A stretch of 42,733 nt of DNA from a virus, in IMG/VR virus record IMGVR_UViG_3300047666_000567, positions 1 through 42,733 of that record; one strand, written 5' to 3'. Below the pieces are notes generated by a model that was given only the letters and a program-made list of their open reading frames with translations, had not been told where the DNA came from and did no database searches. A program made the position numbers and the translations under genes. Below, in pieces: positions 7,288-41,430 of this stretch (position 1 is its first letter; each line of letters opens with the position of its first letter).

Positions 7288-7333
7288 ATAATCTGCCCCA
7301 GTGAGCGGTGGGCACTTGCGAAAAACACTCACA

Positions 7334-7375
7334 CCTGAGGGGCGAGGTTTTGATATCCTATCTCGCTGCCTCAGG
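7334..7375 (+). promoter_or_regulatory. Long stem-loop in the leader of the Tad2-like gene
   Basis: CCTGAGG (7334-7340) pairs with CCTCAGG (7369-7375), and inside it GGCGAG pairs with CTCGCT across one bulged base, making about 13 pairs with a 15-base loop. No T run follows, so it is more likely a 5' leader structure than a terminator. The ribosome binding site (AGAGGG, about 7387-7392) lies outside it. Confidence 0.5.
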
Positions 7376-7400
7376 AACAATTCAAACAGAGGGAAAAGAC

Positions 7401-15680: not shown

Positions 15681-17719
15681 TGCCTACGGCTCGTTTTCAA
15701 CCTTCATTTGCAGCGGGTGTTCTTGGTCCAGGCTTGCATGGCCGAATTGACATTGCAAAATATGACGTCGCTCTCAAGGTCGGCAAAAACGTGTTTGTTC
15801 ATGCTCATGGCGGGGTGTCCAATCGCGCCGGGACTGAGTTCATTGGCGAGGTTATGGACAGCGCAAAAGTTCACACGCTGATCCCCTTCACTCGCGATGA
15901 TGATGAAAATTACATCATGCTCATGGGTGACACGGTGATGAAAATTATTGAAGCTGGCGCGTTTGTTCAAAGCGGTGGATCTGACTACGCTCCGGCAACA
16001 CCTTTTGCATCGGCGTCATTGCTCCTTTTGGACTATGTGCAGTCGATCGACGTCATGTTTTTTGCCAGTCATGGATATTTTCCTCAGCGTATGCAGCGGA
16101 CTGGGGCGACGTCTTGGACGTTTGGAAACCTGCCTATTGATCCGGTTATTGCTGCCCCTACAAGCGTAAGCGTTACGCCGGCAAACACTGCGTCTGAAAC
16201 CTTCACTTACAAGGTGAGCCCAGTAACGGGTGGCGTCGAGGGTTTTACCGCTGCTGAGGTAACAATTTCAAACGGGACCGCGCTGTCTGGCGACGGTGAG
16301 CAGAACGTCATTGCATGGGCTGGATCTGCTGATGAGTACAATGTTTATCGTGAGCGGAATGGCGTTTTTGGGTTTATTGGATTTACTGAGGACACTGAAT
16401 TTACTGACGATAATATCAGTGCTGACCTTCAAACCACACCGATTGTCGCGGCTGATTTGTTTAACACCTCAAACGATTACCCTGCTCACGTCACACTTTT
16501 TCAGCAACGGCTTTGCTACGCCAACACCATAAACCAGCCTGAGACTGTTTTTATGAGTCAGACGGGCAATTTTGTTAACTTCACCAAGTCAAGGATCACG
16601 CGGGCAACTGACCGGATCGAGATTGATTTGAGCGGTCAACAGGTCAACCGGATCAACTCGATGCTGCAGCTGCGTGAGTTGTTGGTGTTTTCGTCTGCGG
16701 GTGAGTTCTCCATCACTGGGCCCAACGGGGGGATGAGCGCGACCAATCCAGTTCAAACGCAATATGGGTATTCGGGTGCGGCAAAAATCAGGCCTCTTGT
16801 GGTCGAGGATACCGCCCTGTTCGTTGATCGGACTGGTCGATCGGTTCGGGATCTGCGCTATGCCTTTGAGCAAGATGGTTACTCTGGAAATGACCTGACG
16901 ATTTTTGCCAGCCACTTCTTTGATGGTCGGCAGATCAAAGGTTGGTGCTATGCCAAAAGCCCTTATTCGGTGATCTGGACGTATCTCGACAACGGCAAAT
17001 TGTTGTCGTTCACCTACAAGCGTGAACATCAGGTTTGGGCGTGGTGTGAGCATGACATAGGTGGTGAGGTTGAAAGCATTGCCTCAATCCCTGAAGGCAA
17101 TCAGGACGCGGTTTATATGATCGTAAAGCGGACAATCAATGGTGTTTTGAAACGGTATGTCGAGCGGCTTCATTCGCGTGAGTTTGACATCGATGCGCCT
17201 GAGGATTGTTTTTTTGTGGACTGCGGGATTACTTATTCTGGCGCGGCCACCACCACCATATCAGGCCTTGGCCACCTTGAGGGCGAAACCCTTGTGGCGC
17301 TGGCTGATGGTGACGTTGTTCCTGGCCTCGTTGTGTCGTCTGGTAGCGTCACTCTGCCCAGTGCCGCCACCAAGGTTCACATTGGGTACGGATACACCTC
17401 TGAGATTGAAAACCTTCCGCCTGCGATCGACCTGCAGGACGCTGGATCAGCGCGCGGTCGGCCAATCAAAGCCAATAAGTTATTTTTGCAGCTGGAAAAA
17501 ACGCGCGGTATTGAGGCCAGCACGTCCGGTCGATCCAAGTTTGCTAAGTTTACTCAAACTGCATCTGACTTGGCTTTGAGTATCCCCTTGTTTACGGGGA
17601 TGATATCCATCCAGCTTTACCCTGAGTGGAACAAGGACGGGACAATCGTTGTGCGGCAAACCTTTCCGCTGCCTATGACTGTCTTGGGGATCTCCCCTGA
17701 GCTAACGATTGGCAGGTAG
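15680..17719 (+). CDS. Tail tubular protein B (nozzle)
   Basis: 679 residues, beta-rich. N-terminal PSFAAGVLGPGLHGRIDIAKY and GGVSNRAGTEFIG are hallmark blocks of the T7 gp12-like/podovirus nozzle family. Later blocks LFQQRLCYANT, MSQTGNFVNF and VVEDTALFVDRTGRSVRDLRY are also family-typical. Six copies would form the distal tube where fibres attach and DNA leaves. Downstream genes are the internal virion proteins, in the T7 order. Confidence 0.9.
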   Translation: MPTARFQPSFAAGVLGPGLHGRIDIAKYDVALKVGKNVFVHAHGGVSNRAGTEFIGEVMDSAKVHTLIPFTRDDDENYIMLMGDTVMKIIEAGAFVQSGGSDYAPATPFASASLLLLDYVQSIDVMFFASHGYFPQRMQRTGATSWTFGNLPIDPVIAAPTSVSVTPANTASETFTYKVSPVTGGVEGFTAAEVTISNGTALSGDGEQNVIAWAGSADEYNVYRERNGVFGFIGFTEDTEFTDDNISADLQTTPIVAADLFNTSNDYPAHVTLFQQRLCYANTINQPETVFMSQTGNFVNFTKSRITRATDRIEIDLSGQQVNRINSMLQLRELLVFSSAGEFSITGPNGGMSATNPVQTQYGYSGAAKIRPLVVEDTALFVDRTGRSVRDLRYAFEQDGYSGNDLTIFASHFFDGRQIKGWCYAKSPYSVIWTYLDNGKLLSFTYKREHQVWAWCEHDIGGEVESIASIPEGNQDAVYMIVKRTINGVLKRYVERLHSREFDIDAPEDCFFVDCGITYSGAATTTISGLGHLEGETLVALADGDVVPGLVVSSGSVTLPSAATKVHIGYGYTSEIENLPPAIDLQDAGSARGRPIKANKLFLQLEKTRGIEASTSGRSKFAKFTQTASDLALSIPLFTGMISIQLYPEWNKDGTIVVRQTFPLPMTVLGISPELTIGR

Positions 17720-17724
17720 GGACA

Positions 17725-18189
17725 ATGAGCGTTTTAATCCGTGATCTTCAAAAAGACGATTTGACTGTAATGGCAGAAATGATCCGACCTATGGATCGGT
17801 TTGAATTCGGCTTGATGTCTGACGGCCAAAGCGTAGAGGAATGTTTGCAGCATATGTTGCGACGTTCACGCCGAGCCCGTGCCGCATATTTTGACGGTAA
17901 GCTGATCGCCGTTTATGGCGTCCTGAGTCCTACCATGATGTCGATCGGCGGAAACCCTTGGATGGCTGCAACTGACATGATTGATCGCTCTGATGTCCGA
18001 CGTTTATTTATTGAGCGGACGCGCTCTGAGTTGGCGTGGCTCTCTGAGGGTTTTTCCTTGCTTTGGAATATCGTATCTGTTGAGAATTCCATAGCGATAC
18101 GCTGGCTGAAGTGGGTCGGTTTTACTTTTGATGGCACTGAGTATGACATTCGTGGCCATCGTTTTCTCAAATTCCAAATGGAGGAATAA
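17725..18189 (+). CDS. Gp13-like internal virion protein, GNAT-like
   Basis: 154 residues. The pattern IRDLQKDDLTVMAEMIRPMDRFE, a sheet containing AAYFDGKLIAVYGVLSP, PWMAATDMI and the C-terminal NSIAIRWLKWVGFTFDG matches T7 gp13-type proteins, which share an acetyltransferase-like fold. In T7 the protein aids assembly of the internal core; acetyl transfer is not established. Order nozzle, gp13-like, gp14-like, gp15/16-like is kept here. Confidence 0.8.
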   Translation: MSVLIRDLQKDDLTVMAEMIRPMDRFEFGLMSDGQSVEECLQHMLRRSRRARAAYFDGKLIAVYGVLSPTMMSIGGNPWMAATDMIDRSDVRRLFIERTRSELAWLSEGFSLLWNIVSVENSIAIRWLKWVGFTFDGTEYDIRGHRFLKFQMEE

Positions 18190-18798: not shown

Positions 18799-20975
18799 TG
18801 GTCGCCATCATTCGCAGTCAGCAATCTAATACGGTTGAGCAAGCCACAAACCCTGTGGCGGTGCGCGCGTCACAAACTGCGCTCGGCGGCTTAGGTGAAG
18901 GCCTGAACCAGGTCGGCGGGATGTTCGACAATTTTCAGGAAGAAATTGACACTGCTGATGCCAAAGCTGCGGACTCGGCCTATTCTGATCTGATCCGTAG
19001 TGAGCTTTATGATGATCAAACTGGCTTCATGTATGCTCAGGGTGGCGATGCAGTAAATCGCCGCAATGATGTGGCCACACGGATCGAGGACGCTCAAACG
19101 AGAATTCTTGGCGATCTGAGCCCGTCTGCTCGGCGCGCTGCGTCTTCAGCAATGGGCGCGCGGTATCAACGGGCGCTTCAGAATGTCGACGTTTACACGG
19201 CGGGGCAACGTCAGGGCTACATGAACGATGCCTCAAGTGCGCGCGTTCTTTCAACGGTTCAGGACGCAATTTATAACCCGGATCAAATTGCTCAATCTTT
19301 GAAGACGGTAAACCAAGAAATAACGGACATGGCTGAACGTGGGGGATGGCCAACTGAGAAAACGGACTTGGCGCGCCGTGATGCTGAAACTCAAATTCAT
19401 TCTGGGATTATCACTCGGCTTGAAACCGCTGCGCCTGATGCTGCCCTTCAATACCTGCGCGACAATCGCGAGAGAATGTCTGGCGATGAGGTGGCGCGTC
19501 TTGAGGGCATTTTGGTCCCTCGCGTTCGTGAAATGGCTGGCCGGAGTCTAGGCGCTGCTGCTGCAGGTTCTCCGAATTCCTCAGAATACATCATGTATGA
19601 AAACAGTGGGGCCATTCGCAATGATCCTTTGAGCGATCGCCTGACTGCGGCTTTTGACTTCCTTCCTGCGCTTGGCGTTCGGATGTCGGTTGTTTCTGGG
19701 GGGCAGGAAAGCGTTGCTGAGTTGACTGCTGAGGGTCGCGCACAAGGTCTGTCTGGCACTGCCCTGCAGGAATTTATTGATGCTGCCAATACCGGATCAA
19801 CACGTCACAATCACGGCGATTCCGTCGATGCTGACTTCCTGCTGCCTGATGGCACAAAGCTAGTTCCAAGCAATCCTGACCACCTTCCTATTCTGCAGCA
19901 AATTGTTCGCCGCGCTCAAGCAAACGGCCTGACCGGATTTGGTGAGGGTGCGGATTACATGGGCGAGGGGCGAATTCATTTGGGTTATGGAACGGCGGCC
20001 ATTTGGGGGGCGAACGGTAATGGCGCAAATGCTTCTGCTTGGCTCACTGCGGCTCTGGGGGATGCGAGTGAATTGGAAGATCTACCGGCAACTGGCGGTG
20101 GATTGGAAAGCCTGATCAATGAGCCCGACCCCACCACGCGGGCCGCGGCTATCGCTGAATACAATCTGCTCACCGGGGTTCGTGAGCGACAAAGTGAAAT
20201 TCAGCGCGATGCTGTCACTGAGCGGGTTGCTGCGGACATTACGCGCGGGGCGTCAACTTCTGAGTTATCATCTGCGGACATCGATGCGTTGGGGCCTACT
20301 GGATACAGGGCAATGCAGCAATATGAGCTGAGTATTGCAACAGGTCGGCCAATCGTTACGGATAATGAAATGTATGTCGAGTTGTTTGATATGCTCAGCT
20401 CAAGACCTGCAGACTTCATGCTGGAAAGGCCTGCCGATTGGATCGACAAACTTGATCAAGGCGATTGGGAATACTTCGTTAAACTTCGCGCCGATATGAT
20501 TTCCGGGACGCGTCCAGCCGCGGGCGAAACCGGATCTCCGCCTATCTCGACCCTGCGCACGGCTGCAAGAACTGCGCTTGAGTCTGCAGGTATCAGTGAT
20601 GATGCTGATAAGAGCGCAGCGTTTGAGCGTGAATTGCTGCAATGGGCCACTCAGAACCCTGCACTGGCGCGCGACCCTATGCAGCTCAACACCCGAGTAA
20701 ATCAAATGCTTATTCCAATCGTCATTGACCCTACCGGAATGAGAAACAAACAATCTGGCCCGCTTTTTGCAATGGATTATGACGGGGCTGCGATCGATCC
20801 TGATGACGATGTGACGCCTGGTATGCTGCGGGATGGTTCGCTCAAGATCAATGGTGTAACCGTTACGAACGACATGATTGAATTGTTTGCCAACGGCTTT
20901 AATGATCGTTTCCAGCGCGCGCCGGATGTTCGGGAATTGGTTGAGGGCCTAACCGCATCGGGGCTTTACGAATGA
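18798..20975 (+). CDS. Internal virion protein with M15-type peptidase domain
   Basis: 725 residues, position of T7 gp15. The N-terminal ~250 residues are helical. A peptidase domain (about 285-410) follows, with metal-site pattern H337-x2-G340-x3-D344 (RHNHGDSVDADF) and H394 in RIHLGYG, as in VanY/M15 D-Ala-D-Ala or L-Ala-D-Glu peptidases. Such an enzyme would cut peptidoglycan locally as the ejection tube crosses the wall. In T7 the wall enzyme is a transglycosylase in gp16, so chemistry and host protein differ here. The C-terminal half is helical, without known motifs. The stop overlaps the next start by ATGA. Confidence 0.75.
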   Translation: MVAIIRSQQSNTVEQATNPVAVRASQTALGGLGEGLNQVGGMFDNFQEEIDTADAKAADSAYSDLIRSELYDDQTGFMYAQGGDAVNRRNDVATRIEDAQTRILGDLSPSARRAASSAMGARYQRALQNVDVYTAGQRQGYMNDASSARVLSTVQDAIYNPDQIAQSLKTVNQEITDMAERGGWPTEKTDLARRDAETQIHSGIITRLETAAPDAALQYLRDNRERMSGDEVARLEGILVPRVREMAGRSLGAAAAGSPNSSEYIMYENSGAIRNDPLSDRLTAAFDFLPALGVRMSVVSGGQESVAELTAEGRAQGLSGTALQEFIDAANTGSTRHNHGDSVDADFLLPDGTKLVPSNPDHLPILQQIVRRAQANGLTGFGEGADYMGEGRIHLGYGTAAIWGANGNGANASAWLTAALGDASELEDLPATGGGLESLINEPDPTTRAAAIAEYNLLTGVRERQSEIQRDAVTERVAADITRGASTSELSSADIDALGPTGYRAMQQYELSIATGRPIVTDNEMYVELFDMLSSRPADFMLERPADWIDKLDQGDWEYFVKLRADMISGTRPAAGETGSPPISTLRTAARTALESAGISDDADKSAAFERELLQWATQNPALARDPMQLNTRVNQMLIPIVIDPTGMRNKQSGPLFAMDYDGAAIDPDDDVTPGMLRDGSLKINGVTVTNDMIELFANGFNDRFQRAPDVRELVEGLTASGLYE

Positions 20976-23900
20976 ATACTCTTTTTGGCGAAAACCTATT
21001 TGCAAAGCATTTTGACGCGATGGAGCAACGGCAAGCTCAACAGCGCAGCACTCAGCTCGTTTTGGCCACGCCTGAGCCTGAAGCTACAACTGAGGCCCTG
21101 AACCTTGGTAATGAGCTGGGGATACCACCTCAGGCGGTGCAGGGCGCGCCGGAAACCTTTCGCACACAAGCGCAGCAACTTCGCAGTACAACGGCACTGA
21201 GGGGCGCGCCATTGATCAGCGATTGGCTGGGTGACACGATCAACGGATCGATCGCCAAGGATGATCTGGAAAACCTGACGTGGTGGGAGAAGTCGCTTCC
21301 TGCAATCGGCGACTTTGCCTTGAGGCAGGTTGGCGAGGATGAAGACGATAAATTCAGAAATGAAGGCATTCTGAGCCTTGCGGGTCGACGCGGCCAAGAG
21401 CTTGCTGCCGGCTTGACTAACATGCTGGCGGGCATTCCTGAGGGCGCTGCAATCCTTGGTGCCCTGAATGATCGGTTTGATCGATCGTCTGCTGATTATA
21501 CCGATGCTTTAGCGGTAACAACTGAGGCTGAGGGCCAGATGCTCACGGCGCGCATTGCTGAAATTGAATCCACGCTCAACCCGACTGAACGTCCTGCTCG
21601 TGAGGATCGACTGAATTCAAACCAGAAGGACGTTTTGGAAGCGGAATTTGTCCGTCTTATTCAGCGGCAAAACCAACTTGGGCTCATGGCTGGATCTGGT
21701 GGCGTTGACGCGATGCGAGAGGACGCATCCGCTCAGCGCGCTGCCGGGCTCGGTCCTGATGGCGAAGTGGTTCCGGCTGCAGATCGTCCAATTTTTGCTT
21801 ATGGCGATGTTGTCCGGGAGGCTTCGGCCTCATTGGTTGGCGTTGCGCCTGAGGATAACAGCCTCGGTTCTTTGCTTTCTGAGGGCGCGGGTAGCCTTAT
21901 TGGTATCATCGCGGCCACGTTGGTTGGTGGCGTTCCTGCCGGTATGGGCGTCGGCGTTTCGGCGGGGGCATCGGGGCAGTATGAGGAAGCCATTTCCTTT
22001 GGGGCAAGTGAGGAAGATGCTTTGCGCTCTGCTGGTCTTGGCGGCCTCATCGGTGCCACTGAAATTATTCCTATCGGTCGCGCTTTGGACATCCTCCCGT
22101 CTGGCATTAAGTCGCGGCTTTCCGGTATCATTGGCGCGCGGCTGGCAAGCGTTTTCAGTTCAGGTGGTGAAGAAGCGGTTCAGGAAGCGTTGGCGACGAT
22201 CGCAAGCAATATGGTTGCGGCTGGGGTTTATGATCCTGAGCGTGGAATTCTGGACGGTGCGGGGACTGCGGCTTTAGTTGGCGCGATCCTCGGTGGCGGT
22301 CTGGGCGGCACGGTTGGCACGTCACAACCAAACGTCCGTCTGATGTCTGACATTGTTGCTGCGGCAACGGCTGGCAATACTGCTGGCGTCATTGATCAGA
22401 TTGATGAAATGGCTGGTGCCTCCCAGGTTCGTGAGCGGTCGCCTGAGCGTTTCCAGCAAGCTCTGGAAGCTGCGGGCGTCGACGGGCAACCTCTCTATGT
22501 GCCGGCTGAAGGTCTGCAAGAATACTTTCAAGCCAAGGACATCACTCTTGATGATGAGACGTTGCGCGCTTGGGGCATTGAGCCCGATGATTATGCTGAA
22601 AAGCTGGCAAGCGGTGGTGATATTACGGTCCCTGTTTCGACGTATGCCACGCGAATTCAAGGCACTGAGGACGCTGCATGGTTCCGCGATAACGCGACAT
22701 TTACTGCGGATGAAATGTCTGTTTCTGAAGCTGCTGACTTTAATGCAAGCGTGGCTGAGACGATGGAGCAGGCGTTCGCTGAAGCTGAAACTGCGCGTCT
22801 ATCTGAGGCAGAAACGCGGGCAGATGATGTCCAGATTTATGACCAAGTGTTTTCTGACCTGCGCGCGGCCGGGCGGTCGCCTGACGTAGCCAAAAATGAA
22901 GCGACTGTCTGGTCTTCGTTCTGGCGGACAATGGGTGAGCGTTATGGCGAAACTGCGCTCAGCTTGGCGCAATCGATGGGCGTCCAGATCCGCGGGCCTC
23001 AAACGCCTGAGGTGGCGCGACGTCGTGACCAGACTGACCGGATGCTCAACACGCTGCGGTCGCGCGGTGAAAAGGCTTTGCGTCCGACTGGCATGGGCAT
23101 CCTTGATTTTGTGCGCGACATGGGCGGCGTTCGGGATCTGGGTGGTGACGTCGAGTCGATGGATGCGCCAAAAGGGATCGTGTCTGAAACGCGGGCTCAG
23201 GGGATCGAGCGTCAAAGCCAGCCTGATCTGAGCGGATCTACTGACTTCACGGGGCGCGGCGTCGGCTTGGATGAAATTGGCCGCGCGATGATCGAGGCCG
23301 GATATTTCCCTGAGTTTGCGGGTGGTGCTGACATCCAGGCTGACGGGACTGTAGTGGATGAAGCTGCGATCGCTCTCGATGCTATTTCTGAGGCCATTGG
23401 TGGGCGTGAGCGTTATATCGAGGGGGAAGGTCCAGATGCGGATCTGACTGCGTTCTCAGAACAGCTCAGTGAGCAGGGCATAGATATTTCGATGTCCAAT
23501 GACGACATCATGGCTGCGCTCAAGGATGGGCAACCGGGTGGGCAAAGTGGGCAGGATGGGCAAACCTATGACCAGAACGGCCAGCTAATTACCGACACGC
23601 CTGAATTCCGCGCGTGGGCTGGGACTGATGAAGTCCTTGATCCTGATGAGGTTAATTTTCAAGACTTCACTGGTCCGGGGCCTTGGGTGATGCGGTCGTT
23701 TCATGGCACTACGCACCAATTTGAGGAATTTGACGCATCTATTAAAGGCACAAAAGAAGGCCAGTTTGGGGCGGTTAACTATTTTACAACCTCTGAGGCC
23801 GATGCGTCCGGCAACTATGGTGCGAATGGCCCTGATCTGACTAACCGCATTGAGAATATGCAAGAGCGTGCAGAAGGCAATCTTGAGTCAGCCCTTGAAG

Positions 23901-26900
23901 GATTGACTGATGAGGATGCCATTATCGAAGCGGCAGAAGATTGGGTCGCTGAAAATTATCCTGACTTTGATACGGGATCGCTAGATCAGCCAACATCAGA
24001 GGATATGGATGAGGCGGTTGATGGCAATGTTCTGCCCGTGGCGCAGTATTATGCGCGTCAAATTTCCAGTTTATTGAATGGCGGCGAAGAAACGGTTCTT
24101 GAGGTATTCGTTCGCACAGAAAAACCGTTTGTTGTTGGCGGTGACAATTCACCGTTCATGGAATTTGTTGATTTTAAGGGGCTGGAAGGTCGCGCCATTG
24201 ATCAAGTCGCAGATAATGAAGGCATTACTGCGCAAGAAGTGATGGATGCGCGCGATGATTATGAAGACCAGATTGATGAGGCTCGATGGGATTTAGAGTC
24301 CGAAACTGAGAACCCCTTAATATCTGCAGTTCAAGATGTTGCAGCTCGTTATGATCTTGATGCCTCTGATTTAATGGCTGATCTTTCTGAAATTGCCTCT
24401 GAGGGTGCGGACCATAGCACGCTTGAAAAGATCATGCGCGGCAGCAAAGGTCTGATGTACGCTGAAGATCCGGAAACTGGCGACACTATTGGCTACCAAG
24501 TGCTTGCTGAAATTATCGAGGCGCTGGGTTTTGACAGCATTATCCTGAAAAATGCAGATCAGCGTTTTGAGAATATGGACATCGATCCCGATACTGCTCA
24601 CGTCCATGTTTTTGACAGTCACAACACCAACATCAAGTCGGTCGACAATCAAGGCACGTTCGACGCGAACGATCCGCGGATACTGTTTCAACAGGACGGG
24701 CCTGAACAGCCTCTTGCTGTGGCTCACAACATCAGTGCGCGGGGCCTGCAGATCGCGGATGGCCTTGGTGGGCTTGCTGCGCCCTCTTTGGGCGTGGTTC
24801 GCGCTGACATCGGGCCTCTGGATGGCTTTGGGGAGATCACGCTGATCGCTGGTCCTGAGTTGGCAGATCCAAAACAGTCCGGCGTCCGGGCGTTTAATGC
24901 TGATGTGTACTCAGTGCGCCAGCCACGCGCGCTCACTGCGATCACGAAAAAAGACAAGGCCACGATCGAGAAGCGTCTGGACCCTGCAGCTGAGGAATTG
25001 GGCGGGCGTTTTTACGATCTGGACACCAATGACTTTGAGCGCGGTGGCCTGACGTATCTGGCGGATCAGCCTGAGGTCAAGCTGGCCTATCTGCGCGATC
25101 AGGGTATCTCGTTTCGCGTTCCTATGACAAAGCTGCCTGAGGTTCCCAAGGATCTGAGGCGGATCGTTTCGGGGCAGATCTTCGAGGTTCGCAAAGACCC
25201 AAAAATGATGGCGGCAATTACGGATCACTTTGGCCGATTGGCTGATGAGTTGATTGAGCGGCTTCCTGAAAAGTTCTCTGACCGTCCATCGACCCCGTAT
25301 TTTGAGGCTGACGGCACGCCGGAAACCAATCAATTTAATCGACTGGTCAACAACATTGCGACATCAAAGGGGGCTCGAAAGCCTGATTACTTTGCGGCGC
25401 GCTCGGCTCTGGCCAAAAAGATCGAAGCCACAAATACACGACAAAGCGACTTCCTTGGATGGGTGGAGGATCAGTTTTCTGGAAACACTGGCGGCCTGTT
25501 CTTTGAAAAGCCAAACGGCAGGCGGGTGCCTTACGATCTGGATGAGCTGGTGCGTTTCATGCGCGGCAAGGTGCGTGATGCTGAGGGCTTCAATTTTGGG
25601 ATCGGGAATATCCGCTCAAACATGGCGCGCGAATTCACAAGCATAAGCCAGGTCAAGGGCGCTCGATCTGACATCGTGACAAAGGCTGAATTCGAGGTTG
25701 TCAAAAAAGAGGTCGGGGCTGAATTCGAGGCGCTGATGGATAGGTTAAAGCCACACCTTCATGGGTCAGATGGATATGGGCATTTCAATCGGGCGTCTGA
25801 GTTTCTTGGCGATATGGCCAAGGGCAACATGCGTGAATGGGCCGGCGATAACATGGTCGCGCCTTTAACGCCTGAGCTGACAACTGACATTCGATCGTTC
25901 CTTTCCAAGCTCAAGGTTCTGCCGACTGAGTATTTCGAGGTGAAAATGCAGCGGGCAGTCAACCTGTCTGAGTTTTCCACGGCTCTGGTTCCCAAGTCCG
26001 CAAGTCCTGAGACTGTAAAGCTGCTGAAAAGCCACGGGATACAGGTCCGCCGATACGATGGAAGCGGTGACACGGGGCGGGCTGAAGCAATGGCTGCGCT
26101 CAATCCTAAGACGTTTTTCCAGCGTGAGGATAAAGGACCGCGCGGGTCGATCATCCTGCCAAGGGGCGGTCTGACTGAGGGCGAAACCGTCATTAACCTG
26201 TTTGAGAGTGCAAACCTGTCGACGTTCCTTCACGAGTCCGGTCACTTCTTTCTGGAAGCGTTTACTCAAATGGCCACCTCGCCTAATGCGCCTCAAGCAA
26301 TGCGCGATGATCTGAACGTGATCCATAAATTTTTGGGTGTTGAGGATGGGTTCAGCCTTGTCCGGGATCAGCATGAAACTTGGGCGCGCGGGTTTGAGGC
26401 GTATCTGATGGAGGGCAAAGCTCCATCGCTTGAGTTGGCGTCGTCGTTTGCTCGGTTCAAAACGTGGCTGTCACGTATCTACAAGTCGATCGCCGGTTTG
26501 AACGTAAAGCTCACGCCTGAAATTCGTGAGGTCATGGATCGGATGCTGGCAACGGATTCTGAGATCGCGGCCATGCGCTCTGATTTGGGCATGAAGCCAC
26601 TGTTCACTGATGCGGCGCCGGTCGGGATGTCTGACGCTGACTTTGCCACCTATCAGCGCATGGCGCGGCGTAGCGTCGAGCAAGCTGAGGCCTCACTGAT
26701 GAACCGGACGATGGAAAAGGTTCGTCGTGAAACTCAGGCATGGTTCAAAGAAGAAAAGGAATCCGTTCGCGTCGAGGTCGAGGCCAGCGCGAACCGGATG
26801 CCAGTTTATCGCCTGACCGAATTGGCAACCAATCAAAAGATGCTGGGCGATACTGATGAGGCGGTTCCTGACATTCAGATCGATCGTGATCAGCTGGTCG

Positions 26901-29900
26901 AGCAGTTTGGTGAAGGTGTGATCGCTGAGCTAAGCCGTGCACGTATCGGCGGCCGGCGCGCGATCTATACCAAGGGTGGTGAAAGCCCGGGCATGGTTGC
27001 GGAAATGTTTGGGTTCTCGACTGCGCTTGATATGGTCGAGGCGCTTCAGAACGCTGGCAAGCGCAAGGAATTTATTGCCACTGAAGTCGATCGCGTAATG
27101 ACAAGCCGGCACGGTGATCCGCTCAATGATGGATCGATCGAGGAAGCTGCGGCGCTGGCCGTCCACTCAGATCAACAATCTGCGATGGTAACGGCTGAGG
27201 CGCGGGCGATTGCCAAGCGTCTGGGCCGCCCTACGCGCGACATAAAGGCCAAGGTTTACGTTGCTAGGGCGCGCGACATGCTGGGCCGGATGTCAGTGCG
27301 TGAGGCGTCTCGTCCTGCCTCCTTCTTGCAGGCTGAACGTCGCGCTGCCAAAACTGCAGAACAAGCGTTTGCTCGGGTCGCGCGCGGGGGCAAGAACGTC
27401 GAGCCTGCCTTGGCTGCAGCGATGCAGGCAAAGGAACAACAGATCCTCAACGGGTTCCTCTATCGTGAGGCGCGCGACTTTGAGACATTGTTGAATCGCG
27501 GGCGCGACCGGATGCAGTCTTATTCCAAGGCAACGGTGCGCGCCAAGGTTGGGCTTTCCTCTGTCGATCCTGTGACTGGTGATATTGTCGCTGGTCATAT
27601 TGAGCAGATCGATGCGCTGCTTGATCGTTTTGACTTCAGGTCCAGATCCAAAAAGCAGATCGAGAATAACGAGGCGCTGCGCAGCTACATCGATCGCATG
27701 ATTGCTGACGGGCGCGGTGATGAGCTTTCCATAGATCAAAAGTTTGTGGATGGCAGTTTGCGGACTCACTACTCTCGTTTGTCAGTGAATGATCTGAATG
27801 GTCTGTTTGATACGATCGCCAACATCGATCACATGGGCCGGCGCCGTGCTGTCTTGGTGGATCGTGCGCGACGTCGTGATCTGAATGAGGTCGCGTCTCG
27901 TGTTTCTATGTTGGTTCGTGAGCGGTTTGGATCTGACAAGCTGGACAAACAAAGTGGCCAAGCCAAAAACTTCTTCAATCTTTTGCTGCGGGTCGACACT
28001 ATTTCTGCAGACATCGACAAGTCTGAAATGGGTGACTTTTATGACGCCATCAAGCGACCTTTGGATGAGGGTGCAAGCCTTGAACAGCGGATGAATTCCG
28101 AGTCTGCGGTGCGGGTCGATGAGATCTTCAGCGCGTATTCATCAAAGGAAAAGGCCACCTTTAACAAGCCTGTTTCTGTGCTTGGCGCAAACGGACACCC
28201 TTGGACAAAGCAACAGATTTTGTCGGTCGCCCTGAACACTGGCAACGCCTCAAACCGTGTCCGGGTTCTTGATCGACGGGTTGAAAAGTCCGTTCGCCTG
28301 ACTGAGCCTCAGCTTGATGCTTTGCTTGGCACAATGGAGAAAAAAGACTGGGATTTTGTTCAGTCGGTTTGGGATTATGTTGACGGATTCAAAAAGCAAT
28401 CCTTTGACACCGCTGAGCGAATGACCGGCGTAAGGCCAAAGTCACAAGACGCGCAAGCCTTCACCAATGTTCATGGCTCGTATCGCGGTGGATACTATCC
28501 GGTTTCCTATGATCCATCGAAGTCTCAAGCTGCTGCGCGCGATGTCGACAGCACGCTGGACGACATGATGTCGACGGGTCGGGGCTCTGCGGCCAAGGTT
28601 GCGGACGGGTTTACAAAGGATCGCGCTGCGAACGGTGGCGGCCGGGCTTTGAATTACGACTTCTCAGTAATGATGAAACACACGCGCGACACTACTCGAC
28701 TGATAGCAATGGGCGAACCTGTGCAGAACGCGCGCCGGATCTTGGGCCATGCTGGGGTCAATGCAGCTTTTCGAGAGGGTGGCGTTTCAAACCTGCTATC
28801 CACGCTCGATCTGTTCCTGCAAGACATCGCGTCTGGGCCTCTTTACAATAACGATGCCATCAATTCCGTGTCTCGAATAATCAAAAACAACTTCACCATG
28901 TCGAGGCTGTCTTTTAACTTCAAGACGGTTGCCCTGCAGGTCACTGGTTTAGGCCAGTCTGCTGCGGTCATTGGTAAGATGAACATGGTCAAGGGTCTGG
29001 CCGAATACACTCGGCGCCCAATCGACATCAAAAACGAGGTCATGGCGAAGTCACCATTCATGGCCGAACGTCAGACTACTTTTCAAAAAGACGTTTACGA
29101 CATGGCAGACGAGATGAGGCAGGCGTCACCAATCGCGAACAAGCGGCGCCAAACGCAAGAGCTTGTTTCCAAGGCTGGCTTTTTCGCAATGGTTAAAACT
29201 CAATTTCACGTTGTCGACATGCCCACCTGGTTGGGTGCGTATCAAGCTGAGATTAAACGCAACGGCAATGATGAAGCTAAGGCAATCCATTTTGCGGATC
29301 GCATGGTAGATCGATCGCAGGGCGGTGGCTTCATGACAGATCGAAACTCACTTGAGCGCGGGACTTTATCGAAGAACGTAAGGCAGGCTGATTTTGTACG
29401 CCTCTGGACGACACTCGGCGGCTACATGGTGACAAAGATGAACCGCATATATTTGGCAAAACAGTTTGGTTTGCGCGATATGAGTGAAGCAGAATATGCT
29501 TATCAAAAGGTTCTTGCTGCCGCAAATATGGCGTCGGATCTTGCGCTCTTGATGGTGTGGGAATCGGTCTCAATGGGCTTGATCTATGCGGGCCTTGAAG
29601 CTCTGGGCGATGGCTTTGACGATGATGAAGCTGATGAGCTGCGCAACTTTTTGATGAAAGAGACGGTCGGATCTGTTCTCGGCGGCGTTCCATTTGTGCG
29701 CGAAAGCGTCGGGGCATTTAACGGGTACGGCGCGGGCGGCGTTCTTTCATCAGCTCTTGAGATACCTGCAAACATTATGATCCAAGCCAGTCAGGGAGAT
29801 AACGATAAGCAGTTCCGGCGCGCGATTGCGGACTCTGTTGGTATCATGACCGGGATGCCAACAACTCAGACCATGCGGATTATTGAGGAATTACTGGAAG

Positions 29901-29956
29901 GCGATAAGGGGTCTATAGTTGAGGCCACCATTGGTCGGAATCCACTGACATATTGA
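20972..29956 (+). CDS. Giant polyvalent ejection protein (ART-like and zincin domains)
   Basis: 2994 residues, 21 percent of the genome, in the position of T7 gp16. Visible parts: helical start; Gly/Ala-rich hydrophobic segments (about 300-450) that could span membranes; an ADP-ribosyltransferase-like polyvalent domain (about 905-1245) opening with SFHGTTHQFEEFD and NYFTTSEA and ending with GTFDANDPRILFQQDG; a second conserved block starting NISARGLQIADGLGGLAAPS (1253 on); a zincin-like domain with HESGH at 1754-1758; and a long helical C-terminal region with a hydrophobic stretch near 2860-2880. Probably carried in the virion and injected, modifying or cleaving host proteins on entry. No frameshift is seen over 9 kb. 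Confidence 0.8.
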   Translation: MNTLFGENLFAKHFDAMEQRQAQQRSTQLVLATPEPEATTEALNLGNELGIPPQAVQGAPETFRTQAQQLRSTTALRGAPLISDWLGDTINGSIAKDDLENLTWWEKSLPAIGDFALRQVGEDEDDKFRNEGILSLAGRRGQELAAGLTNMLAGIPEGAAILGALNDRFDRSSADYTDALAVTTEAEGQMLTARIAEIESTLNPTERPAREDRLNSNQKDVLEAEFVRLIQRQNQLGLMAGSGGVDAMREDASAQRAAGLGPDGEVVPAADRPIFAYGDVVREASASLVGVAPEDNSLGSLLSEGAGSLIGIIAATLVGGVPAGMGVGVSAGASGQYEEAISFGASEEDALRSAGLGGLIGATEIIPIGRALDILPSGIKSRLSGIIGARLASVFSSGGEEAVQEALATIASNMVAAGVYDPERGILDGAGTAALVGAILGGGLGGTVGTSQPNVRLMSDIVAAATAGNTAGVIDQIDEMAGASQVRERSPERFQQALEAAGVDGQPLYVPAEGLQEYFQAKDITLDDETLRAWGIEPDDYAEKLASGGDITVPVSTYATRIQGTEDAAWFRDNATFTADEMSVSEAADFNASVAETMEQAFAEAETARLSEAETRADDVQIYDQVFSDLRAAGRSPDVAKNEATVWSSFWRTMGERYGETALSLAQSMGVQIRGPQTPEVARRRDQTDRMLNTLRSRGEKALRPTGMGILDFVRDMGGVRDLGGDVESMDAPKGIVSETRAQGIERQSQPDLSGSTDFTGRGVGLDEIGRAMIEAGYFPEFAGGADIQADGTVVDEAAIALDAISEAIGGRERYIEGEGPDADLTAFSEQLSEQGIDISMSNDDIMAALKDGQPGGQSGQDGQTYDQNGQLITDTPEFRAWAGTDEVLDPDEVNFQDFTGPGPWVMRSFHGTTHQFEEFDASIKGTKEGQFGAVNYFTTSEADASGNYGANGPDLTNRIENMQERAEGNLESALEGLTDEDAIIEAAEDWVAENYPDFDTGSLDQPTSEDMDEAVDGNVLPVAQYYARQISSLLNGGEETVLEVFVRTEKPFVVGGDNSPFMEFVDFKGLEGRAIDQVADNEGITAQEVMDARDDYEDQIDEARWDLESETENPLISAVQDVAARYDLDASDLMADLSEIASEGADHSTLEKIMRGSKGLMYAEDPETGDTIGYQVLAEIIEALGFDSIILKNADQRFENMDIDPDTAHVHVFDSHNTNIKSVDNQGTFDANDPRILFQQDGPEQPLAVAHNISARGLQIADGLGGLAAPSLGVVRADIGPLDGFGEITLIAGPELADPKQSGVRAFNADVYSVRQPRALTAITKKDKATIEKRLDPAAEELGGRFYDLDTNDFERGGLTYLADQPEVKLAYLRDQGISFRVPMTKLPEVPKDLRRIVSGQIFEVRKDPKMMAAITDHFGRLADELIERLPEKFSDRPSTPYFEADGTPETNQFNRLVNNIATSKGARKPDYFAARSALAKKIEATNTRQSDFLGWVEDQFSGNTGGLFFEKPNGRRVPYDLDELVRFMRGKVRDAEGFNFGIGNIRSNMAREFTSISQVKGARSDIVTKAEFEVVKKEVGAEFEALMDRLKPHLHGSDGYGHFNRASEFLGDMAKGNMREWAGDNMVAPLTPELTTDIRSFLSKLKVLPTEYFEVKMQRAVNLSEFSTALVPKSASPETVKLLKSHGIQVRRYDGSGDTGRAEAMAALNPKTFFQREDKGPRGSIILPRGGLTEGETVINLFESANLSTFLHESGHFFLEAFTQMATSPNAPQAMRDDLNVIHKFLGVEDGFSLVRDQHETWARGFEAYLMEGKAPSLELASSFARFKTWLSRIYKSIAGLNVKLTPEIREVMDRMLATDSEIAAMRSDLGMKPLFTDAAPVGMSDADFATYQRMARRSVEQAEASLMNRTMEKVRRETQAWFKEEKESVRVEVEASANRMPVYRLTELATNQKMLGDTDEAVPDIQIDRDQLVEQFGEGVIAELSRARIGGRRAIYTKGGESPGMVAEMFGFSTALDMVEALQNAGKRKEFIATEVDRVMTSRHGDPLNDGSIEEAAALAVHSDQQSAMVTAEARAIAKRLGRPTRDIKAKVYVARARDMLGRMSVREASRPASFLQAERRAAKTAEQAFARVARGGKNVEPALAAAMQAKEQQILNGFLYREARDFETLLNRGRDRMQSYSKATVRAKVGLSSVDPVTGDIVAGHIEQIDALLDRFDFRSRSKKQIENNEALRSYIDRMIADGRGDELSIDQKFVDGSLRTHYSRLSVNDLNGLFDTIANIDHMGRRRAVLVDRARRRDLNEVASRVSMLVRERFGSDKLDKQSGQAKNFFNLLLRVDTISADIDKSEMGDFYDAIKRPLDEGASLEQRMNSESAVRVDEIFSAYSSKEKATFNKPVSVLGANGHPWTKQQILSVALNTGNASNRVRVLDRRVEKSVRLTEPQLDALLGTMEKKDWDFVQSVWDYVDGFKKQSFDTAERMTGVRPKSQDAQAFTNVHGSYRGGYYPVSYDPSKSQAAARDVDSTLDDMMSTGRGSAAKVADGFTKDRAANGGGRALNYDFSVMMKHTRDTTRLIAMGEPVQNARRILGHAGVNAAFREGGVSNLLSTLDLFLQDIASGPLYNNDAINSVSRIIKNNFTMSRLSFNFKTVALQVTGLGQSAAVIGKMNMVKGLAEYTRRPIDIKNEVMAKSPFMAERQTTFQKDVYDMADEMRQASPIANKRRQTQELVSKAGFFAMVKTQFHVVDMPTWLGAYQAEIKRNGNDEAKAIHFADRMVDRSQGGGFMTDRNSLERGTLSKNVRQADFVRLWTTLGGYMVTKMNRIYLAKQFGLRDMSEAEYAYQKVLAAANMASDLALLMVWESVSMGLIYAGLEALGDGFDDDEADELRNFLMKETVGSVLGGVPFVRESVGAFNGYGAGGVLSSALEIPANIMIQASQGDNDKQFRRAIADSVGIMTGMPTTQTMRIIEELLEGDKGSIVEATIGRNPLTY

Positions 29957-36417: not shown

Positions 36418-36460
36418 TGTACCCCTTCAGGTGATAACACCAAAAGGGGTACATTTTTTT
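36418..36460. terminator. Strong bidirectional terminator
   Basis: TGTACCCCTT (36418-36427) pairs with AAGGGGTACA (36444-36453), with an inner GGTG/CACC stem, followed by seven T on the plus strand. It ends rightward late transcription and, lying just after the stop of the leftward ATPase gene, also serves that operon. Confidence 0.88.
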
Positions 36461-37805
36461 AAGCTCGATCGTTTTCAAACATTGATCCGGTCGGCGCTGG
36501 TTTTTTGGTTTCAGGCTGATCGACTGGATTTTTTTTGGTTGTCGATGCGGGCTCAAGCTGTTGGCCCTTTACGTGGCCGTCTTCAAGAACAAAACCTACT
36601 GTTCCATTGCTGTCTACGCGCTCGATCCAAATTTGATAGTCGTGGGCGTCTGCCATTTCAGACAGCGTTTTCAGCGCGTCTTGGTCGAGCAGGCTGCCGT
36701 CGCGGACCCGGATAACCTTCAGTGTAGGGTTCAGGGCCATTGCAATCCCGATTGACGCCTGAAGTTGCTGGGCATCACTGGCCTGGTTGAACGGTACGCC
36801 ATCGAGATACACGGCGCCGTCTTGGATGCTGAGTCCATCGATGGGCATTTTGGCGCTGGCGATTGCTGCCTGTGCGTCTTTTTTGATCTTATCAATGTTG
36901 GCCGTCATGTCGGTTGCTTTTTCGGTTGCGGCTTTGGCACCTTCGGCCTGCTGATCTCGGCGTATGGCTCTGTTTACCATGTCGTTCACCTCAGATGCGC
37001 CGCGGATCTTGTCCATGATTTCTTTGGTGTCGATCTTATCCATGCTGGCTTTTATTTTGAGCAGGTTTTCTTCGGCAATGGTTCTTTCTTTTATGCGCAA
37101 CCGGATCTGTTCCTGAAGCGTTTCTATGTCTGCAAAAATTTTATCCATATTGGTTTTTGCCCATGCGCGCGCGGCATCAGTGGCGTCCACGTCCAAATTA
37201 TGATCCTGAGCCTTCTCCAAGCTGTCGGAAAGGCCTTGCACGTCAACGCGGATCGGGATGTCTTTGGGCAGGTCTTTGGACAATTCCTCAGCTGACGATC
37301 TGGCCGTGTTTGCGTCACGGTTGTATTCCGTCCGGCGCGCGTAAAGCGTCTTGATGTCTTCCTCGGCCCGGATAAAGTCGAATCCCGGCACAAGGCTGCG
37401 CAGGGATAGAACCTGCTCGGCGTCCTTCATGCGCGTGAAAGCCAATGGATCGAATGTCAGCTCTCCCAATAGCTTGTCGAGCATGGATTGAGGGCTCGAA
37501 AACTTGGCGCCGTCGCCATTCTCAACCGCGATCGAGGTGGTATAGCTGCCATCCTCCTGAGCGATGAATTTGCGGGTGATCTTCAGTTCTCCAAGATCGA
37601 GGCGGATGATTGCGCGTTCTTCACCTTTGCGGATCGGGGTGGTCTGGACGTTTTTGGTCCCGTCCAGTGCCCACCATATTGCGTCTAGTACGGACGTTTT
37701 GCCTTGGCCATTCTTGCCAGTGATCTGGACTAGGTTGCCATCTGGACGGATCTGAACGGCTGTCAGGCGTTTCAGGTTTTCGGCGTGTAGCTCGATGATT
37801 TTCAT
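36459..37805 (-). CDS. SbcC/RecF-like recombination ATPase
   Basis: 448 residues from the ATG at 37805, preceded by AAGGGCAAGAC; a longer upstream frame overlaps the ERF gene and lacks support. N-terminal MKIIELHAENLKRL and Walker A GKNGQGKTS (30-38) mark an SMC/RecF/SbcC-type ATPase. The middle (about 150-310) is coiled-coil-like. The C-terminal lobe contains NQASDAQQLQASIGIAMAL as signature region and KVIRVRDGSLLD as a degenerate Walker B. Many phages place such an ATPase beside ERF. Predicted to act with the exonuclease and annealing protein in DNA end processing. The start overlaps the ERF stop by ATGA. Confidence 0.8.
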   Translation of the reverse strand: MKIIELHAENLKRLTAVQIRPDGNLVQITGKNGQGKTSVLDAIWWALDGTKNVQTTPIRKGEERAIIRLDLGELKITRKFIAQEDGSYTTSIAVENGDGAKFSSPQSMLDKLLGELTFDPLAFTRMKDAEQVLSLRSLVPGFDFIRAEEDIKTLYARRTEYNRDANTARSSAEELSKDLPKDIPIRVDVQGLSDSLEKAQDHNLDVDATDAARAWAKTNMDKIFADIETLQEQIRLRIKERTIAEENLLKIKASMDKIDTKEIMDKIRGASEVNDMVNRAIRRDQQAEGAKAATEKATDMTANIDKIKKDAQAAIASAKMPIDGLSIQDGAVYLDGVPFNQASDAQQLQASIGIAMALNPTLKVIRVRDGSLLDQDALKTLSEMADAHDYQIWIERVDSNGTVGFVLEDGHVKGQQLEPASTTKKNPVDQPETKKPAPTGSMFENDRA

Positions 37806-38620
37806 GTGTCTTGCCCTTGTTGCTGTGCGGCGATGTCGCGCGCTGCTTGTGATATGCTGTCGTGGTGGCCATTGGTAATAAGCCAGCCCTTTTGTACGTT
37901 TGTCAGGCTGCCAAGCCATCCAGCGTATGCTTTTGGACCGCCTTTTGCTGATTTCCGGCCTTCGTCTACAAGGCGATCATAGTTCTCTCCTTGAGGCTGG
38001 CCGCTGTTTGAGTTTTCCTTTCCCGTGATGCTGTTATCTTCTTCCTCAGTGATCCCAAGGCATGAAATTGTGACGGTGCGCTTGCCTGTCTCGACTGCGC
38101 CCTTGGCCGCCTGTGTCAGGCTGATGGATGAGTTCGCTGCAGTGATCGGCACTGGCATATATGACCCGTGCCAAACGTATCCGTTCTGGTGGCGCAGTAC
38201 CGGGGCGACACGTAAAAAGGGGATTTTGGTCTCGATCTTCGTTTCATCGACATCAAAATCAAGGATCAAACGGTTCGCGCTCAGGATAGGTTTGACCGTG
38301 AGATAAAGGTGTTTGAAGTCAGAATAGCGATACATCAGGTTGCCGGTTTTCCCGCTCACAACTTTGTTTTTGATGATCGTCGGCATGTCAGCCATCGCCG
38401 CAAACTTGGCTTGGTTGAATTCCTCCTGCCGCTGATCTTGGATCATGGTTTTTTGCAGCTCATACATTGTCTGCATCTTGGCCGCGTCCATCGTCGGATC
38501 TTTGGCCATTTCCTGAAAAGAGGTCCAGATCGCCGCGGGTGACATCGGATCGATGCGCGGGGAAAGTGTCATATCTGTTTTTTCATCTGCCACTGCTGGC
38601 AGGCTTGTGTCGTTGTTCAT
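37802..38620 (-). CDS. erf: ERF-family single-strand annealing protein
   Basis: 272 residues from ATG 38620 (a GTG at 38629 would add three). The pattern YELQKTMIQDQRQEEFNQAKF, NLMYRYSDFKHLYLTVKPIL and GAVETGKRTVTISCLGITEE fits P22 Erf-type annealing proteins. Near the C-terminus is a helical tail with many Gln. It would anneal complementary strands produced by the RecE-like nuclease, allowing circularisation and concatemer repair. Its start overlaps the stop of a 51-residue gene (TAATG). Confidence 0.8.
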   Translation of the reverse strand: MNNDTSLPAVADEKTDMTLSPRIDPMSPAAIWTSFQEMAKDPTMDAAKMQTMYELQKTMIQDQRQEEFNQAKFAAMADMPTIIKNKVVSGKTGNLMYRYSDFKHLYLTVKPILSANRLILDFDVDETKIETKIPFLRVAPVLRHQNGYVWHGSYMPVPITAANSSISLTQAAKGAVETGKRTVTISCLGITEEEDNSITGKENSNSGQPQGENYDRLVDEGRKSAKGGPKAYAGWLGSLTNVQKGWLITNGHHDSISQAARDIAAQQQGQDT

Positions 38621-38834: not shown

Positions 38835-39080
38835 TTAACACCTCAGCCAGTCTTTGTATTTTGCCTGAAGTTCAAGCCATGCCTGTTGCTGAAGGCTCTC
38901 GATGTTTAATTCTGAGCGACTTTTGACCCCGCAATGGGTTTTCACCACCTCGGTCGCCTGGGTTGCGTTTGTGATCTGTGGCCATATCCCGTCGAATTCT
39001 TCGCTCAAAAATACGTGAAACCCGCCTTCATTGCAGGTCATTGCGCAAAATGACGCGATGCTCATGGGGCGTTTTGTCAT
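38835..39080 (-). CDS. Hypothetical protein
   Basis: 81 residues. Contains FCAMTCNEGGFHVFLSEEFDGIWP, VKTHCGVKSRSELN and a C-terminal WLELQAKYKDWLRC. Four cysteines, not in an obvious metal motif. ATG overlaps the preceding gene's TGA. Last gene of the upper leftward operon before the 38776-38834 regulatory gap. Unrecognised. Confidence 0.6.
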   Translation of the reverse strand: MTKRPMSIASFCAMTCNEGGFHVFLSEEFDGIWPQITNATQATEVVKTHCGVKSRSELNIESLQQQAWLELQAKYKDWLRC

Positions 39081-39271
39081 GGTGTCAATCTATGTTCTAG
39101 GTTGCGACGTTTGATGTGTTCCATCAGGTCGGCTTGCTTCGGGTTGTTGTGCCTCACGCACGTCTTGTATGAATTGAGCAGGTATTCGTCAGGCATGGCC
39201 TTGATGTAGACAATGCCGTCGTGTGACATCCATTTATCAGGCGGGACACCCTCTTGGGGGTCGTTGCTCAT
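39077..39271 (-). CDS. Hypothetical small protein
   Basis: 64 residues from ATG 39271, which overlaps the upstream stop by ATGA (an earlier in-frame ATG lies inside the neighbour). Contains MSHDGIVYIKAMPDEYLLNS and a basic tail HIKRRNLEHRL. Unrecognised; translated within the coupled operon. Confidence 0.6.
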   Translation of the reverse strand: MSNDPQEGVPPDKWMSHDGIVYIKAMPDEYLLNSYKTCVRHNNPKQADLMEHIKRRNLEHRLTP

Positions 39272-39555
39272 GGCTTGGGCTTTATGGCTGCGCGGGCCAT
39301 CGCCTGACATTCCATGTCTTCAAAAGGATTGGCCGGTTCAAAGCATGCAATTTCTGTCAGAGCCGCCTCAAGCTCCGCAATCCGTGCTTGGGATGCCTCA
39401 ATTTCGTCCGCAGCTTCATGGCAGGCTTGGCGCGACACGATGCACATAACCCCGTCTTCATTGCACTGCTGTCCACTGCGTAGCGCGTCGGTCAAGCTCG
39501 TCGGCTTGTGTGGCGTCAAGGGTGGCATTCCGTTGTAGGTGGGTAGGTCGTTCAT
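39268..39555 (-). CDS. Hypothetical protein with short coiled coil
   Basis: 95 residues. N-terminal Pro-rich segment (YNGMPPLTPHKP), then CIVSRQACHEAADEIEASQA and a short coiled coil (RIAELEAALTEIA), as in many small phage accessory proteins. Both ends overlap neighbours by ATGA. Function unknown. Confidence 0.6.
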   Translation of the reverse strand: MNDLPTYNGMPPLTPHKPTSLTDALRSGQQCNEDGVMCIVSRQACHEAADEIEASQARIAELEAALTEIACFEPANPFEDMECQAMARAAIKPKP

Positions 39556-39857
39556 GGTGTTTCCTCAAGTTCGCCGCCGCAATGTGGGCAAAGCTCTGGA
39601 ACGCCGGGCGCTCCAATCACTTCATCGCATTCTGGGCAATACAGATCATCCGCGTGCAGGGCGTCGTGTGCCTCCTGCTCGGCTAGGTGGCGCTCAATCG
39701 CGGCAGTGTTTCCGTCGGTGTTCATGATGATACTTTCTATTCTGCGCAGGATGGGGTCACAGATTGTTTTGTGGAGCTTGGACCAAATAGCTGACTCCCG
39801 TTCCTGCGCGAGTTGCATACTTTTGTGAATTGAGGTGGCGGTTTTTTGATTGCTCAT
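39552..39857 (-). CDS. Zinc-ribbon protein
   Basis: 101 residues from ATG 39857, overlapping the stop of the alpha-CTD-like gene. The first two thirds are helical. The C-terminus has CPEC (74-77) and CPHC (90-93), a classical zinc ribbon, followed by an acidic tail. Being translationally coupled to a protein resembling an RNA polymerase domain, it may work in transcription too; that is conjecture. Confidence 0.65.
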   Translation of the reverse strand: MSNQKTATSIHKSMQLAQERESAIWSKLHKTICDPILRRIESIIMNTDGNTAAIERHLAEQEAHDALHADDLYCPECDEVIGAPGVPELCPHCGGELEETP

Positions 39858-40189
39858 TGAGGAACCTCGTTTTTGTCGAGACATTCTTGCGCGATGTCGA
39901 TCATGTCTAGTCGATCCATTAAAAAATGAGGGTTTGCGATTTGCCAAAGCGCAATAGCTGCTGGTTTTGACCAGTCGCGGGACGCCTTTGGAGTTTGAAG
40001 TTTTGCGAATAAAACCAAAACGCTATCAAGGGACATGCGCCCAAAATTTGGAATTCTAAGCAATCCGGCTGGTCCTTTTGCATTAACAATGTCCAGAATA
40101 TCTTGGACTGTTTCAACTCCATAAGCATCAAGGGATCTGATTGCCCTGGCTGACATTTGAGTTTTGAGAATACTTGTTTCTGGGGTCAT
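39854..40189 (-). CDS. RNA polymerase alpha C-terminal-domain-like protein
   Basis: 111 residues from ATG 40189 (ATGA overlap with the exonuclease stop). Residues 12-64 follow the alpha-CTD pattern: MSARAIRSLDAYGVETVQDI, then LLRIPNFGRMSLDSVLVLF. Against E. coli alpha, R15 corresponds to DNA-contacting R265, G50 to G296 and S53 to S299, while N268 and K298 are replaced (R18, M52). No alpha N-terminal domain is present. The remaining ~45 residues are helical and unknown. Could bind promoter DNA or activators and redirect or block host transcription; a helix-hairpin-helix DNA-binding role in recombination is the alternative. Confidence 0.7.
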   Translation of the reverse strand: MTPETSILKTQMSARAIRSLDAYGVETVQDILDIVNAKGPAGLLRIPNFGRMSLDSVLVLFAKLQTPKASRDWSKPAAIALWQIANPHFLMDRLDMIDIAQECLDKNEVPQ

Positions 40190-41430
40190 GCTGGCACCGA
40201 GTCCAAGAAATAATCCCTGAAGTCCTCGTCGCCAATCTCGCCAATCATGTCCATCGGATACCATTCCTGATCAGGTCCGTAGATCGTCATTGCCTGAAGG
40301 AATAGTTGCTTGGCGCGCTGGATTTCAATATCAGCCTTTCGGCACAACACGCCATCGCTTTGGCTGAACGTGTGATCCTCGGCGCCGGTGGACTGCATGT
40401 CTACGCCTTCAGGGAAACGCTGCAATTTCAGCTTGCGCGCCAATAGGTTTGGGATTCCGCCTTTTTCCTGAAAGAACAGCCAAGGTTGATGCGGTGTGTT
40501 TTTGGCGCGCAATACGTCAATCAGGTTATTCTGATTGTTTTTGATGTCGCCGCGCTCAGCCTTAGTCAGCGCATCCGGTTCATCGATCACCTGCAGGTCC
40601 AGCTTTCTGATCATGCTGATCGCGATCTGATAAGCGCGCATGGACAGATAGTATTTATAGAATTGAACCTGGTCATTGATCGCCTGATTGACCTGCTTGC
40701 CATTCGAGTTGGCAAACGATTTCAGGTCCACAAAGCAATCCTGCTTCAGCTTGTCGATCCGGGCTTTCATCGGGATGCCGCTATCCGGGCAGGTCCATAG
40801 GATTGTGACTTCGGACGCGCCACCATTCACAAGGTCATGGATCTCAGGGTTTGCCTTGATCCGCTCAAGGTCGCGCATGATCTGCGTCCAGTATTTTGAA
40901 CCGATAGGCTGGCGATCGCCCAAGGCTTCCTGAAACTCAGCCAAAACGAGTGACTTGATCGGCTTGGCAAAGCCCAATTCTGCCAGACGTAGCGCGCGAT
41001 CTACGGATGCTTCGCCAGTCTTTGACTGAGGCGCGCCGTATTCCTTTAGTGCCGACTTTACGTCGGTGTCTGTCATTAACATATCCTCAAAGTCGGCCAG
41101 ATCTGGTTCGCCTGCATATCTGTGGGCAAGTGTTTCGGGCTCGAAGATCGCGACGTGATACGCGCGGCCCAAGATTTGCGCCTTGGTGTCGTCGTCGTCA
41201 TTGTCAGCGACTTCCGGGTTCATCCATGATTTTGCCCAAAACGTCGGTATGCTGATCAGGATGTTCTTGATGCCGCTGGCGCTCAGGCGGCTCAGCGCGT
41301 GATATTCTGACTCAGGCAAATTGAAATAAATTCCATCTTCACGTGATGGGTGCTGCCAAATGGACGGCTGATCACCGTCGATTGGATTTCCCTCAGTTTT
41401 TTCGGCGCGGTCTTGGTCAAATAGTCCCAT
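40186..41430 (-). CDS. RecE-like PD-(D/E)XK exonuclease (DUF3799 type)
   Basis: 414 residues. Family blocks: LSASGIKNILISIPTFWAKS (about 50-69), GRAYHVAIFEPE with H92, EVTILWTCPDSGIPMKARID with E207 and D226, and VDLKSF with D235-x-K237, the core of the PD-(D/E)XK active site. Q254 and Y258 follow in the next helix as expected. It would degrade 5' ends of double-stranded DNA to expose strands for the ERF protein. The long N-terminal part (1-40) is variable. Translation is coupled to the alpha-CTD-like gene. Confidence 0.82.
   Translation of the reverse strand: MGLFDQDRAEKTEGNPIDGDQPSIWQHPSREDGIYFNLPESEYHALSRLSASGIKNILISIPTFWAKSWMNPEVADNDDDDTKAQILGRAYHVAIFEPETLAHRYAGEPDLADFEDMLMTDTDVKSALKEYGAPQSKTGEASVDRALRLAELGFAKPIKSLVLAEFQEALGDRQPIGSKYWTQIMRDLERIKANPEIHDLVNGGASEVTILWTCPDSGIPMKARIDKLKQDCFVDLKSFANSNGKQVNQAINDQVQFYKYYLSMRAYQIAISMIRKLDLQVIDEPDALTKAERGDIKNNQNNLIDVLRAKNTPHQPWLFFQEKGGIPNLLARKLKLQRFPEGVDMQSTGAEDHTFSQSDGVLCRKADIEIQRAKQLFLQAMTIYGPDQEWYPMDMIGEIGDEDFRDYFLDSVPA

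Follow-up and report, generated by a model that had tools for sequence, protein, structure and literature searches.

The residues of the E. coli RNA polymerase alpha C-terminal domain (alpha-CTD) that contact UP elements and the sigma factor are well established. The host alpha-CTD is also a known target of phages, since Alt and ModA of phage T4 ADP-ribosylate Arg265, a residue crucial for UP-element binding (PMC2988021). Phages moreover encode such domains themselves, and databases already name this kind of protein: ORF40 of Erythrobacter phage vB_EliS-L02 is a small protein with a free alpha-CTD-like domain (PMC9127768), and gp23 of Ruegeria phage vB_RpoS-V16 contains one as well, with the sequence IPNFGRKSL, but fused to a pyrophosphatase (MazG-like) part. 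Functional studies of free phage alpha-CTDs were not found in the open literature searched. Here, we describe an alpha-CTD-like protein encoded in positions 1 to 42,733 of the IMG/VR record IMGVR_UViG_3300047666_000567, the whole 42,733 nt stretch being referred to as the window. It resembles the named phage proteins, including vB_EliS-L02 ORF40, in kind and not by established close kinship. The comparison with T4 Alt and ModA, likewise aimed at host alpha-CTD function, concerns the mode of action only, as these are enzymes without homology to it.

The gene has an intact reading frame on the minus strand, as first annotated, from the ATG at position 40189 to a stop codon at 39854, and the alpha-CTD portion of its 111 aa product corresponds to residues 1-65 (Table 1). 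RNA_pol_A_CTD (PF03118) was the sole Pfam family matched by the protein (28.3 bits versus a curated cut-off of 23.8, E = 1.4e-6), and it was matched at one place only in the whole record. All NCBIfam matches were to rpoA models, far below the rpoA cut-offs, and the matches to PDB sequences, individually weak, were alpha subunits throughout. An HMM derived from 27 alpha-CTDs of other phages, with the protein itself excluded, recovered it at an E-value of 1.2e-10 (39.3 bits). Helix-hairpin-helix Pfam families gave no match to the protein at E-values up to 1, the C-terminal extension matched no family, and no match to the alpha N-terminal domain, which serves dimerisation and core assembly, was obtained in the 111 aa, in agreement with its reported absence. 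Single-sequence searches of annotated phages, plasmids, IMG/VR and GTDB genomes returned nothing closely related to this exact protein, and an alignment scan of genome contigs returned no relative.

Table 1 Features of the alpha-CTD locus and its surroundings in the window.
Feature	Coordinates	Strand	Evidence and remarks
Free alpha-CTD-like protein P0001	39854..40189	-	111 aa; Pfam, phage-family HMM, predicted model
Alpha-CTD domain, residues 5-65, tandem helix-hairpin-helix fold	39995..40177	-	Pfam, model, alignment
Hairpin LLRIPNFGRMSL, residues 43-54 (E. coli 289-300)	40028..40063	-	Sequence, alignment
C-terminal extension, residues 75-105, two predicted helices	39875..39967	-	Low confidence, pLDDT about 60-76
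Exonuclease VIII-like PD-(D/E)XK protein (DUF3799), upstream neighbour	40186..41430	-	Pfam; stop overlaps alpha-CTD ATG
Zinc-ribbon protein (CPEC...CPHC)	39552..39857	-	Sequence; Pfam zinc-ribbon matches, all weak
Accessory stretch of four genes (alpha-CTD, zinc ribbon, 39268-39555, 39077-39310)	39080..40189	-	Missing there in sister phages
Small gene	38835..39080	-	Homologue directly after exonuclease in L115 and G004
ERF-type single-strand annealing protein, same gene run	37802..38620	-	
RecF/SMC-like ATPase (phrog_1499), same gene run	36459..37811	-	

We folded the protein with AlphaFold2 on an alignment of phage relatives (A5), which yielded a model with a pLDDT of about 95 across residues 1-65. 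When the model was superposed on known structures, the best 34 matches were all alpha-CTDs, headed by 1z3e_B (Z 10.7, 1.3 A over 61 residues), and they were followed by the N-terminal hairpin domains of the RAD51 family as the nearest other structures (Z 8.3). The Caulobacter alpha-CTD bound to AT-rich DNA was among the matches, too (Z 9.6). Foldseek assigned a probability of 1.00 at an E-value of 1.4e-2; such E-values are weak by themselves, and a domain of this small size is not expected to reach significance. The model depends in part on the sequence evidence, because alpha-CTD-like relatives stood in the folding alignment. The family profile, the phage-family profile and the predicted structure thus agree on the alpha-CTD relationship proposed in the first-pass annotation, and a better match to a generic helix-hairpin-helix domain of a nuclease or ligase can be discarded because alpha-CTDs outrank the other helix-hairpin-helix domains. 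As judged from sequence and model, the gene product is a genuine but divergent alpha-CTD that is detached from the polymerase.

With the bacterial domain, the protein shares the fold, the PNFGR hairpin and equivalents of R265, N294, G296 and S299 (E. coli numbering here and below). R265, G296 and S299, the residues already listed as kept, correspond to R15, G50 and S53, and an Arg at position 297 is kept as well. A plain MAFFT alignment suggested R18 as the R265 equivalent, but it misplaced helix 1; the HMM alignment and A5 both place R15 there. Besides the two substitutions noted previously, N268 to R18 and K298 to M52, we observed the changes C269 to S19, E302 to S56, D259 to K9, E261 to Q11 and E288 to G. 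Hence, of the UP-element contact set R265/N268/C269/G296/K298/S299/E302, only R265, G296 and S299 are kept. The protein further differs from bacterial alpha by four extra residues directly before AGLLRIPN, i.e. ahead of the second hairpin, and by the additional C-terminal helices. The loss of N268, K298, E302 and both acidic sigma-patch residues weakens the reading as a plain UP-element competitor; the protein may bind UP elements or sigma only weakly or not at all. The partial loss of DNA-contact residues would also fit a protein decoy, in which the protein-contact face of the domain binds a host activator, an Spx-like regulator or the phage zinc-ribbon protein instead of DNA. Consistent with such a decoy, the best fold match is the Spx-bound alpha-CTD 1z3e, tied with others, and the zinc-ribbon gene is coupled to the alpha-CTD gene, as the first-pass annotation had stated: its ATG overlaps the alpha-CTD stop codon in an ATGA at 39857-39854. 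The 287-type face is changed too, however (E288G and the four-residue insertion), and zinc ribbons were not enriched beside relatives (4/111 versus 6/197, p = 0.75), so that we consider this explanation improbable.

The search for homologues in other phages was productive, as a scan of IMG/VR with the phage alpha-CTD alignment identified 44 contigs on which small ORFs encode an alpha-CTD, either alone or in fusion, compared with 15 contigs in an earlier scan. PF03118 was matched by 21/21 proteins of the first family set. The ORFs are mostly 100-180 aa long and differ in their extensions and in the end at which the domain lies. In loci L089, L093, L096 and L099, the domain has a C-terminal fusion partner with a resemblance, judged by eye, to DUF551 (WxPIxTAPKDGT). 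In the alpha-CTD-like ORFs of loci L106, L108, L111 and L114, a long insertion separates the two hairpins; L106 and L111 adjoin DNA polymerase A-like genes, and L114 lies near an SNF2-type helicase gene. Many 'phage' matches to the alpha-CTD query in tblastn were probably bacterial rpoA genes in mislabelled records and were not counted. R265 was present in 27/27 of the other phage domains, S299 in 24/27, E302 in 25/27, N268 in 20/27 and K298 in 19/27, while positions 259 and 261 were acidic in 22/27 and 21/27, respectively; the family was picked by one strict motif, [EQ][LM]L[RC][IT]PNFG, so residue counts are biased by this motif at 288-296 and by the similarity filter overall. The search motif does not cover these seven positions and hence did not create their conservation, which is, however, favoured by the similarity filter; the conservation indicates that phages preserve the DNA-contact surface. 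Most of the 27 domains have lost fewer contact residues than the 111 aa protein, which is thus one of the more divergent members. Free alpha-CTDs could constitute a widespread class of phage host-takeover proteins occupying UP elements or sigma and activator surfaces, and the present copy would then be a variant member whose DNA and sigma contacts have been rewritten, a generalization that we consider possible but doubtful.

The main rival explanation arises from the gene neighbourhood. The stop codon of the exonuclease gene overlaps the alpha-CTD start in another ATGA (40189-40186), and the ERF and ATPase genes belong to the same gene run. The protein might accordingly be a recruited generic helix-hairpin-helix DNA-binding module that aids the exonuclease VIII-like, ERF and RecF-like proteins of this operon and plays no role in transcription. 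Such a role would be in keeping with the overlapping coupling to a PD-(D/E)XK exonuclease, the lost sigma-contact acids and the rank of the RAD51 hairpin domains directly behind the alpha-CTDs. It would also match the surroundings of some relatives, found beside a PDDEXK exonuclease (L018, L080), VRR-NUC/Hjc-like genes (L083, L085, L086), YqaJ and ERF (L021/L088), PolA (L106, L111) or an SNF2 helicase (L101, L114), the names of single genes being assigned partly by eye. Adjacency to PD-(D/E)XK genes was striking at first, but as a family trait it was not significant against further genes of the same loci: at position -1 of relatives the p-value was 0.03 raw and 0.11 with related lineages merged, and nucleases occurred within two genes in 8/81 cases versus 4/84 for control genes four to six away (p = 0.24). 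Most relatives furthermore retain the alpha-CTD-specific residues, and the partnership with the exonuclease is not conserved, as sister phages hold a different gene after it. On balance, we regard a purely recombinational role as rather unlikely. A promoter scan detected nothing above shuffled sequences.

Sister phages were found via the terminase, and no alpha-CTD was detected in any of those searched for one, although two of them, G003 and G004, have the exonuclease, ERF and ATPase genes in common with the window. A third close relative, L115, was found via the exonuclease. In L115, the end of the exonuclease, TTCTTGGACTCGGTGCCAGCATGA, is identical and is directly followed by the homologue of the small gene at 38835-39080. 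The same arrangement exists in G004, while G003 has a different gene in that slot. A zinc-ribbon homologue is present elsewhere in G004. Because L115 and G004 pass straight to the small gene, the window carries the extra four-gene stretch exactly at the overlapping stop and start codons, and the alpha-CTD gene can be considered accessory since the sister phages lack it. Its GC content is 43.8% versus 52.4%, in the lowest 0.8% of windows, for which reason a gain of the stretch here is tentatively favoured over a loss in the sisters. Absence from the sisters, low GC, the loss of several functional residues and the missing close homologue might also characterize a passenger gene that is decaying and currently serves no function; yet the frame is intact, the start/stop overlaps are precise, the fold is predicted with confidence and the equivalent of the invariant R265 is retained, which leaves a passenger very improbable. 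Small, accessory, low-GC genes absent from sister phages are typical of host-interaction genes.

We return to an effect on host transcription, giving slightly less than an even chance to a DNA-binding accessory protein that derives from the alpha-CTD, is probably made early and interferes with or redirects host transcription. The protein would be produced from the recombination operon, which is probably early, and would bind DNA through the retained Arg (R15, equivalent to R265) and the hairpin (G50, S53). The untethered copy could then occupy upstream promoter DNA or a partner of the alpha-CTD, and this occupancy would shift the promoter choice of the host polymerase. The changes N268R, K298M, E302S, D259K and E261Q suggest that the DNA preference has shifted and that the usual contact with sigma is lost, which is why we propose interference rather than normal activation. 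The location in a recombination operon and the nucleases, polymerases and helicases adjoining several relatives count against a transcriptional role, which is plausible for this copy but weaker than for the family. If true, carrying the domain as a free copy would represent a competitive route, unlike the modification of Arg265 by T4 Alt and ModA. With 44 contigs, several architectures and mostly conserved DNA-contact residues, the question is directly testable.

Some other genes of the record deserve mention. Two genes on the plus strand (15680-17719 and 17725-18189) encode T7-like nozzle and gp13-type proteins, from which we infer a podovirus-like particle. Despite this podovirus-like gene set, the large ORFs tested did not include an RNA polymerase gene; the earlier statement that the phage has no RNA polymerase of its own holds for these ORFs but less firmly for the phage, as the record is possibly an incomplete genome. 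The 2994 aa polyvalent protein encoded at 20972-29956 (plus strand) contains LPD22, a PBECR5 nuclease-like domain and a weak ADP-ribosyltransferase match and is probably injected along with the DNA. A 202 aa protein (7308-7916, plus strand) matches Tad2 (Thoeris anti-defence 2-like, PF11195, E = 7.3e-22) in its C-terminal part and has about 100 additional N-terminal residues. Finally, the 406 aa protein encoded at 419-1639 (plus strand) matches RMF (ribosome modulation factor, PF04957) in two stretches, best in the C-terminal one, which is unusual for a phage protein.
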